Shown: positions 38,364 to 59,131 of the stretch, piece after piece
Numbering within the stretch: the stretch's first letter is position 1
Layout: the number at the start of each line of letters is the position of its first letter
DNA from: Deltaproteobacteria bacterium
GTDB taxonomy: Bacteria; Desulfobacterota; Desulfobulbia; Desulfobulbales; Desulfurivibrionaceae
NCBI GenBank assembly: GCA_021802645.1
Contig: JAJZRO010000002.1
Span: forward strand, 66,257 to 130,256
Length of the DNA stretch: 64,000 nt
Direction of reading: 5' to 3'
Position numbers and translations under genes: made by a program
The notes under the pieces: model-generated
What the model was told of the DNA's origin: nothing
The model's database searches: none
What the model saw: the letters and a program-made list of their open reading frames with translations, nothing else

Positions 38364-40028
38364 TCAGCGGGTCAGATGCTCTTGGATGATGCTCATGAGG
38401 GCCGAAGAAATCATGTTGGCCAGCATGGTCAGGATATGCATATCATGTTCGGTGAAATTGTCATCCTTTTTGTTCACCCCCTCGATCACCCCAATGCAGA
38501 GCCCATTGATGCGCAACGGGACGGCGAGCAGCGACCGTGTTTCGAAGTCGAAGCGGCGGTCGAGCGCCTTGTCGAAGCGGGCATCGGTAAGGACGTTGGT
38601 GGTGAGGGCCGGCCGGCCGTTGCGGTAAACCCAGCTGGCCAGCCCCATGTCGAGGGTGATGGCCTGGCCCTGCAGCATCTTGCTCCGGGGGCCGGTGGGA
38701 AGCGCGATGAGCATCTCCTCCTTATTTGGCTCGGCCAGCAGGATGGAACTCGCTTCGCAGCCAAGGAGGTGGTTGGCCATCTCCAGCGCCTGCCGGAGGA
38801 TCCACGGCCCTTTACGGGTGTTTTGCAGCAGCACGGAGATGCGGAGCAGGGTGGCGATTTCCCGTCGGTCCATCTTCTCGAGCAGGGAGTCGGGCACCAT
38901 CTGGTGCAGAAGGCCCGTAGCCAGGGCCGAGGAGCTGATGGCGTTCATGTCCATCAGGATTTCGCCCAGGCAGCGGCCGCTGGTCTGGTGGTTGATCCAG
39001 GGCAAAAGGGTTTTTCTGATGGCGGTCGTCAGGGTTTCGTTGGGCTCCTTGGCTTGTGCCCGCTGCTGCTGGACGGCGAGGGCGGCGTTGATCTGTTCGC
39101 GGGAGGCGAGCCCCAGTTCCCGCAGCACCTCGCCGAGGCGGCGCCACTGGCCGCGGAGGTCCAGGAGATGTGACGAAAGGTTGGCAGCGATGTTTTCGTG
39201 GTACGGGTTATGGCCGTTGCCGAAGAAAACGGCAAGATAGCGGTCCATGCGGCCATAGCGCTCAAGCCGCGGCGCCACGAATTCTTCATAGAAGTGAAGC
39301 ACCCCTTCCTTGAGTTCCTGGGCGGACTTGTAGACCGGGGCGCCGAGTTGCCGGATTTGTTCGGCGCCTTCGCGCTCATAAACCTCTCTGAACTCGACGT
39401 AGAGGTCGGTGAGCCGGGGCAGGTATTTGTTATCCGCCATCTGGGCGACGAGGTCGGCGGTGGGAACCATCTTGGCCAGGGCCAGTTCGAGCGGGTCATG
39501 GAAGAGGGCCGTCGCCTCGGGTTCGTGACGGTAATCGGTGAGCGAAATCATGGCCGGCACCAATTCCCGGGCCCGGGCCGGCCAGCGGGATTCCGTCAGA
39601 TAGCGGCCCGCCATCTCCATGCCCCGCTGGACGTGGGTAAAGGTGTATTTGCCGCCCCGGCCATCGTGGTCGCCCTTGTCCTTGATGTAGCCGGCATCGT
39701 GGAACAGCCCTGCGGCAATGCCGCACAGAAACAGGTCTTCGGGAAATTTCGGTTGATCGCCCGAACGGTTCCAGCCCGCAGCCATACGGGTAAGGGTGAC
39801 GGCGGCATCGAGGGCGTGACCGCAGTTGTGGTAGGAAACCTCGCACGCCTCGTAGGCGGGCCAGCGGCCGTCATAGAGAGCGACGACATCGCGGAGCAGG
39901 CGACTGAGTCGGGCAGGGACGCGGCCGTATTCCTCTTTGACGATGGTCAACAGAAGGCTGGTGGCGGTCCGTGTTCTGGCGGCCTCGGGGGTAAGCGAGG
40001 GTTTGCGGTGCTTTTTCGCTGGTGCCAT
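38364..40028 (-). CDS. HD-phosphodiesterase-like, MshEN-like and GAF domain protein
   Basis: This predicted signalling protein has 554 residues. The N-terminal HD domain has YHNCGHALDAAVTL and AGLFHDAGY, a pattern like the metal site of class I cyclic-nucleotide phosphodiesterases, with TFTHVQRGMEMA and a later conserved Asp. A middle section (about 285-360) has two MshEN-like repeats (LGEVLRELGLASREQI and LGEILMDMNAISSSALATGL). A C-terminal GAF domain includes LGCEASSILLAEPN and SLLAVPLRINGLCIGVIEGV. The substrate is unknown. It sits 15 bases upstream of yejA. No strong ribosome site is visible. Confidence 0.78.
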   Translation of the reverse strand: MAPAKKHRKPSLTPEAARTRTATSLLLTIVKEEYGRVPARLSRLLRDVVALYDGRWPAYEACEVSYHNCGHALDAAVTLTRMAAGWNRSGDQPKFPEDLFLCGIAAGLFHDAGYIKDKGDHDGRGGKYTFTHVQRGMEMAGRYLTESRWPARARELVPAMISLTDYRHEPEATALFHDPLELALAKMVPTADLVAQMADNKYLPRLTDLYVEFREVYEREGAEQIRQLGAPVYKSAQELKEGVLHFYEEFVAPRLERYGRMDRYLAVFFGNGHNPYHENIAANLSSHLLDLRGQWRRLGEVLRELGLASREQINAALAVQQQRAQAKEPNETLTTAIRKTLLPWINHQTSGRCLGEILMDMNAISSSALATGLLHQMVPDSLLEKMDRREIATLLRISVLLQNTRKGPWILRQALEMANHLLGCEASSILLAEPNKEEMLIALPTGPRSKMLQGQAITLDMGLASWVYRNGRPALTTNVLTDARFDKALDRRFDFETRSLLAVPLRINGLCIGVIEGVNKKDDNFTEHDMHILTMLANMISSALMSIIQEHLTR

Positions 40029-58193: not shown

Positions 58194-58207
58194 TTGACCT
58201 ACGTCAA
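58194..58207 (+). promoter_or_regulatory. FNR/CRP-type operator, TTGAC-N4-GTCAA
   Basis: The site is a perfect palindrome TTGACCTACGTCAA. Its centre (58200.5) is 41.5 bases upstream of the start predicted from the -10 hexamer TATACT at 58230-58235. That is the class II activator position used by FNR/DNR/HcpR-type proteins. It stands upstream of the cupin gene. Confidence 0.65.
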
Positions 58208-58229
58208 GGCAATGGCAGGCTCCGGGTGC

Positions 58230-58235
58230 TATACT
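58230..58235 (+). promoter_or_regulatory. -10 hexamer of the cupin gene
   Basis: TATACT (five of six to consensus) would set the start near 58242, about 22 bases before the ATG. There is no good -35, as expected for a class II activator-dependent promoter. Confidence 0.55.
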
Positions 58236-58263
58236 CTTGGTAAACCCCACGGAGGTGGCTGCC

Positions 58264-58578
58264 ATGAAAAAAATCGCCCTTGCCGAAACCAGCGTCTTTG
58301 ACGAAAAGAGCTTTAAACGTTTTCTGCTGCACGATTCGCCTTATTTCCGGGTGCTGAACTTCAACCTCAAGGCCGGCCAGCTCTTTCCGGTCCATTCGCA
58401 TCCCACCGAGGGTCAGCTCACCATCCAGGTGGTGGAAGGCAGTGGCGAATTTCTGTCGACCGATACGGCCATCCCCGCCGCCAGCGGCGACATCCTGGTG
58501 AGTGACATCAGCGAACCGCACGGGGTGAGGGCCGTCACCGACATGCGCATCCTGGTCACCATCGCCCCGCCGTTCTAA
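58264..58578 (+). CDS. Small single-domain cupin protein
   Basis: This 104-residue cupin has the first motif FPVHSHPTEGQLTIQVVEGSG (two His and a Gln in place of the usual Glu) and the second motif SDISEPHGVRA with one His. Metal binding is likely but the usual Glu is missing. GGAGGTGG lies before the start. The FNR/CRP-type site upstream suggests expression tied to redox, nitrogen-oxide or respiratory state. Substrate unknown. Confidence 0.85.
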   Translation: MKKIALAETSVFDEKSFKRFLLHDSPYFRVLNFNLKAGQLFPVHSHPTEGQLTIQVVEGSGEFLSTDTAIPAASGDILVSDISEPHGVRAVTDMRILVTIAPPF

Positions 58579-58723: not shown

Positions 58724-59131
58724 ATGAAACATTTGCTCGCTTTGTTGGGAATGGTGGCGGTGCTGGCACTCGCCGTCGCCTGTTCGGATAACCGGGCCAG
58801 TCAGAGCGGCCCGATTTTTCGCACGCTGACGCCGCTGGAGGCCAAGACGCTCATTGCCCAGCGTTCCGGTCTCGCCATCATCGACCTGCGCGAACCGCAG
58901 GAACTCCACGAGGGGTCCATTGCCGGCTCGCAACTGATGCCCTTTCGGGAGATCGCCCAGGGCCGCCTTACCCTGCCCAATGACCGGCCGTTGCTGCTGA
59001 TCTGCGCGATCGGCGGCCGCAGTTACATGGTGGGCCAGTATTTCAGCCGCAAGGGATACCCGGAGATATATAGTCTTGAAGGGGGAATCGCGGCCTGGAA
59101 GCAGGCGGGCCTGCCGGTGGAATACCACTAA
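58724..59131 (+). CDS. Rhodanese-domain lipoprotein
   Basis: This 135-residue secreted lipoprotein has a signal peptide ending LALAVAC (lipobox) and a rhodanese domain: LAIIDLREPQELHEGSIAGS and the active-site loop LLICAIGGRSY with the catalytic Cys. The periplasmic location fits sulfur-atom transfer or thiol handling in a sulfur-metabolising anaerobe. GGGGATG lies before the ATG. A convergent symporter shares a terminator region. Confidence 0.9.
   Translation: MKHLLALLGMVAVLALAVACSDNRASQSGPIFRTLTPLEAKTLIAQRSGLAIIDLREPQELHEGSIAGSQLMPFREIAQGRLTLPNDRPLLLICAIGGRSYMVGQYFSRKGYPEIYSLEGGIAAWKQAGLPVEYH

Follow-up and report, generated by a model that had tools for sequence, protein, structure and literature searches.

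The window, a stretch of 64,000 nucleotides from contig JAJZRO010000002.1 of a sulfur-cycling anaerobe, a member of the Desulfurivibrionaceae (assembly GCA_021802645.1), contains a short gene for a single-domain cupin preceded by a compact promoter region (Table 1). The operator TTGACCTACGTCAA reads TTGAC-N4-GTCAA and does not have the form of a CRP-type operator (TGTGA-N6-TCACA). The first-pass annotation described it as a perfect dyad, which is correct for the 5-bp arms and incorrect for the central CTAC, which is not palindromic. The sequence reading gives a gap of exactly 22 bp between the operator and the hexamer TATACT. For a transcription start at A58242, 7 nt past the hexamer, the centre of the dyad would be located at -41.5, the class II position; the same placement had been proposed in the first-pass annotation, and the 22-bp gap bears it out for a start predicted from the hexamer. 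The position of the -35 hexamer is occupied by AGGCAA, which is not a -35, and between 58100 and 58760 a scan with the sigma-70 consensus returned no promoter, in agreement with the earlier statement that a usable -35 is missing. The sequence thus combines an operator at about -41.5 with the lack of a functional -35, the two features of a class II promoter. Basal transcription may occur via the extended -10. Downstream of the cupin gene, on the same strand, positions 58724-59131 encode a short protein that has a rhodanese domain and a signal resembling that of lipoproteins (LAVACS). A rhodanese gene beside the cupin is not conserved among the distant loci searched.

Table 1. Features of the cupin promoter and gene; positions refer to the window.
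Feature	Position	Strand	Remarks
Operator TTGAC-CTAC-GTCAA, putatively HcpR/DNR-type	58194-58207	+	Centre 58200.5; read directly
GG flank directly after the operator	58208-58209	+	From the ortholog alignment
Extended -10, TGcTATACT	58227-58235	+	TG 58227-58228, hexamer TATACT 58230-58235; 22 bp from the operator
Predicted transcription start, A	58242	+	From the position of the -10
Ribosome binding site GGAGGT	58251-58256	+	Read directly
Single-domain cupin gene	58264-58578	+	ATG 58264; 104 codons and stop

Exact TTGAC-N4-GTCAA occurs twice in the window, while 0.08 occurrences are expected from shuffling. The other copy, TTGACGATGGTCAA at 39937-39950, has no -10 at class II distance and is probably background. 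Taken singly, the match at 58194 would be suggestive at most. Promoter geometry, regulon and conservation together make a convincing case for its function as an operator, as predicted from sequence.

The source genome (2.55 Mb, 38 contigs, 99.4% complete) was analyzed genome-wide by pattern searches. Exact TTGAC-N4-GTCAA was found in five places, and perfect TTGAY-N4-RTCAA in 12, seven of them just before genes. The genome scan suggested in the first-pass annotation revealed further sites and a putative regulon. The seven site-bearing targets are the cupin, hcp, a hemerythrin-PAS gene, two octaheme cytochromes, a NirB-like gene together with ygbA, and a second NirB-like gene. The hydroxylamine reductase/hybrid cluster protein gene hcp (846 bits to NCBIfam PRK05290) carries the operator TTGATGTAAGTCAA at C37:168418, the same operator type as that of the cupin in the same genome, and a 4Fe-4S ferredoxin-like gene lies about 850 bp beyond hcp. 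Both octaheme cytochromes match Multi-haem_cyto. Both NirB-like genes belong to NIR_SIR, and the first is followed by ygbA, a member of the 'nitrous oxide-stimulated promoter' family. The location of these sites before nitrogen-oxide genes is consistent with the response to nitrogen oxides or redox state that had been suggested for the cupin.

A -10-like hexamer is located 21-24 bp downstream of the operator at all seven regulon sites and matches TATAAT in at least four of six positions at six of them. Among ten readings of the five non-regulon sites, one reached four matches. The extended 16-mer TTGAYNYANRTCAARG, with one mismatch allowed, yielded 15 strand matches vs. 2 for the reversed control pattern; only two places beyond the seven regulon sites were matched. 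The remaining five of the 12 perfect TTGAY-N4-RTCAA places (L002, L003, L008, L009 and L013, with L003 being window position 39937) have no -10 geometry and were classified as background.

The two octaheme cytochromes (L101 2107-3624 and L102 2210-3496) are distantly related to each other and have one operator each. They weakly resemble proteins of the hydrazine dehydrogenase/HAO type and are candidate NO or hydroxylamine enzymes. The octaheme operator in L001 is followed by two possible -10 hexamers, TATGAT at 1526-1531 (gap 11) and TATCCT at 1537-1542 (gap 22), an arrangement that might let the site serve in two ways. A structured RNA before this octaheme gene was considered and dropped; Rfam gave no matches in the loci that carry sites.

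One clear gene for a Crp-type HTH protein is present genome-wide (C6:16758, 69.7 bits in the HTH domain search). A Crp/Fnr regulator, whose absence from the genome would have spoken against the first-pass reading, is thus encoded. A weak HTH match, L007, reads like a DtxR-type protein, and the cNMP-binding proteins L096-L100 gave no Crp-type HTH match; all were rejected as regulators. The C6:16758 protein has 228 amino acids and no cysteine, which excludes an FNR-type iron-sulfur cluster. Of the solved structures, DNR (3dkw) matches the protein best, with E = 1.7e-35. An FNR-type recognition helix, GTIPETLSR, is conserved in this one candidate and was identical in 29 of 30 regulator sequences taken from genomes with the cupin; the search expression did not match the 30th. 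A regulator homolog (E <= 1e-10) was detected in 49 of 50 cupin-bearing genomes, with at least 45% identity in 45. In two genomes (G038 and G043) the homolog adjoins hcp in divergent orientation. The lack of cysteine, the match to DNR and the homologs divergent to hcp characterize the protein as probably HcpR/DNR-like. These observations support the FNR/CRP-type prediction of the first-pass annotation and narrow it to the HcpR/DNR type. The strict control by a DNR/FNR/HcpR-like regulator predicted there is retained as far as the regulator is concerned; control need not be strict because the extended -10 may permit basal transcription. A genome of the same genus, G056 (90% complete), encodes a regulator with 88% identity and has no detectable cupin ortholog.

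A wide search found 77 cupin orthologs; most come from records under the names Desulfobulbaceae, Desulfocapsa and Desulfurivibrio or their relatives. A perfect site is located upstream in 22 of them; shuffles gave a mean of 0.14 sites (maximum 2) and random windows of the same loci a mean of 0.48. After alignment on the site, the similarity to TATAAT peaked at gap 22 with 3.52 of 6, vs. 1.0-2.5 at other gaps. The second flanking G occurs in all of these 22 distant perfect sites, the first in 19. The other 55 orthologs have no perfect site within 300 bp; hence, regulon membership of the cupin is not universal. In Desulfocapsa-like loci (L019, L023, L024, L025, L028, L036, L037, L040 and L041), the cupin is located behind a leuA-like gene and has no operator. 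The C-terminus encoded by this preceding gene reads like 2-isopropylmalate synthase (leuA). The hcp of one genome of this group (L157) does carry the operator.

Within the family of the window itself, 22 of 25 cupin orthologs have the site. A hexamer with at least four of six matches is found at gap 22 in 15, and at 21 or 23 in most others. In the 22 promoters, the columns of the core and the GG are invariant (top-base fraction 1.00), while the flanks average 0.56. The upstream region of one siteless ortholog, L188, is cut by the contig end. Another is encoded in G055 (1.7 Mb), where a frameshift and two in-frame stops interrupt the HcpR homolog (L257 1108-1789, G055:C19). In this genome the site and the regulator seem to have decayed in parallel; a sequencing error is also possible. 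The third siteless ortholog occurs in G075, a genome only 60% complete, in which no regulator homolog was found. In G025, sites are present at cupin and hcp, and the best regulator homolog found is only 34% identical.

As a control, 30 Prismane/CODH Pfam loci from the cupin-bearing genomes were examined, in which hcp and CODH-like genes were separated by length as a presumptive criterion. A perfect site was located just upstream in 16 of the 18 loci of hcp length, and one of the remaining two is cut by a contig end; no site within 300 bp precedes any of the 12 longer, CODH-like loci. When neighbourhoods are considered without regard to the motif, the cupin gene lies near hemerythrin-PAS, octaheme or hcp genes (L035, L058, L062, L072, L076, L080, L087 and L091). 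The 20 Desulfovibrionales cupin loci comprised 15 picked blind to their neighbours and five chosen for an Hcp noted earlier at the locus. Of the 15 blind-picked loci, 10 have within 3 kb a homolog of Hcp, HcpR, octaheme, NIR_SIR or hemerythrin-PAS; some of the sampled genomes may be closely related. The TTGAC-type motif is absent before most Desulfovibrionales cupins, and no CRP-like sites were found before those examined. The rarity of the motif fits the published, differing HcpR motif in Desulfovibrio.

The cupin protein (104 aa) is a single domain that matches Cupin_2 with 28.3 bits (cut-off 27.2). Its AlphaFold model (mean pLDDT 95.8) forms a cupin barrel. The closest structure is 2q30 (Dde_2303), with 54% identity and a TM score of 0.96 over the whole chain. 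Across 46 orthologs, H44, H46 and H86 are invariant, a pattern in keeping with the metal site of cupins, and most of the sequences have Q or E at position 51. The protein is presumably a small, probably metal-binding accessory of the nitrosative-stress defence.

On this evidence, 58194-58207 is almost certainly a conserved binding site for an HcpR-type nitric-oxide regulator, judged by sequence, and the cupin is likely part of the cell's defence against nitric oxide and nitrite. The region is very probably a class II activator promoter under an HcpR/DNR-like Crp/Fnr protein, which would activate the cupin together with the regulon, most likely in response to NO. NO, or nitrite through NO, would activate the protein, with heme as the sensor, as is the case for characterised relatives. 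The activator dimer would bind TTGAC-N4-GTCAA centred at -41.5 and, touching RNA polymerase, would substitute for the absent -35. Cupin, hcp, hemerythrin-PAS, octaheme cytochrome and siroheme nitrite-reductase-like genes would be switched on together. From these patterns we infer that the protein binds and activates rather than represses, that the signal is NO, that heme senses it, and where transcription starts.

Control of the cupin by the same Crp/Fnr protein, sensing oxygen or the general redox state as an FNR-like anaerobiosis regulator, is improbable. The operator resembles an FNR box, the recognition helix has the E..SR pattern and FNR promoters typically have class II spacing. However, a cysteine-free protein could not hold the FNR-type iron-sulfur cluster, its best structure match is DNR, and its targets are hcp, hemerythrin, ygbA and NirB-like genes. 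Still less probable is a repressor operator, where an HcpR-like protein would block the cupin promoter until relieved by NO. HcpR2 of Desulfovibrio desulfuricans has been modelled as repressor of a cupin-hcp operon (PMC5701242), and the extended -10 may function without an activator. The missing -35 of the cupin promoter fits activation instead, and the gap is fixed at 22 bp across genera, an exactness that a repressor does not need. A chance palindrome beside an ordinary or different cupin promoter, as the five background matches without promoter geometry might suggest, can practically be dismissed in view of the coherent regulon, the invariance of core and GG over the flanks, the excess of sites over shuffles, and a spacer from TTGACC to TATACT that would be 30 bp long, beyond the sigma-70 range.

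With activation by an HcpR/DNR-like protein as the preferred reading, a small conserved family that has a crystal structure and no assigned role gains a testable place in nitrosative-stress defence. A putative NO regulon of seven promoters is defined in a little-studied lineage of the sulfur cycle. The class II spacing, kept at 22 bp in different genera, and the genome that seems to have lost site and regulator function together constitute clean natural evidence for the predicted mechanism. More tentatively, and at somewhat less than an even chance, the 2q30-family cupin could be a core part of the NO and nitrite defence that is widespread among anaerobic Desulfobacterota and their relatives and has so far gone unrecognised; it would then carry out its own chemistry, acting on NO, on a nitrosated metabolite or on a metal site that has been damaged.

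The kind of operator and regulon predicted here is already known. An HcpR motif, wyTTGACnnnnGTCAArw, has been predicted for Geobacter, Desulfotalea and Desulfuromonas (Rodionov et al., 2005, PMC1274295). The same study reports that the HcpR regulon frequently includes genes like those for ferredoxin, hemerythrin and cytochrome c. The regulon of the delta-proteobacteria described there, of the FNR-like motif type, has the motif in common with the present one, as well as hcp and, in the hcp locus, a ferredoxin-like gene. Its main text names no cupin, whereas the cupin is a conserved member here, and the -41.5 spacing, given the predicted start, has additionally been measured across genera. Pseudomonas DNR (3dkw) resembles the regulator in the lack of a cysteine cluster and in an FNR-like box with C/G flanks. 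The two proteins are related at the level of distant homologs; DNR targets denitrification genes, in contrast to the hcp, octaheme and NirB-like genes found here. The structure 2q30 (Dde_2303, Desulfovibrio desulfuricans subsp. desulfuricans) represents the same small RmlC-like cupin family. It was deposited as uncharacterized, and no paper on Dde_2303 or 2q30 turned up in the literature searched. In the same literature, the conserved membership of the cupin in the regulon appears undescribed, with the exception of an NO-induced cupin of Desulfovibrio. This cupin-fold gene, Ddes_1828, adjoins hcp in D. desulfuricans 27774 and is induced by NO with a log2FC of 4.4, compared with 3.17 for hcp (PMC5701242). 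It differs in the type of HcpR and in that no TTGAC-type site has been reported, and it is likened to the present cupin by fold and context. The likeness in gene context consists in an adjoining hcp and HcpR-family gene, and for Ddes_1828 the induction by NO is known.
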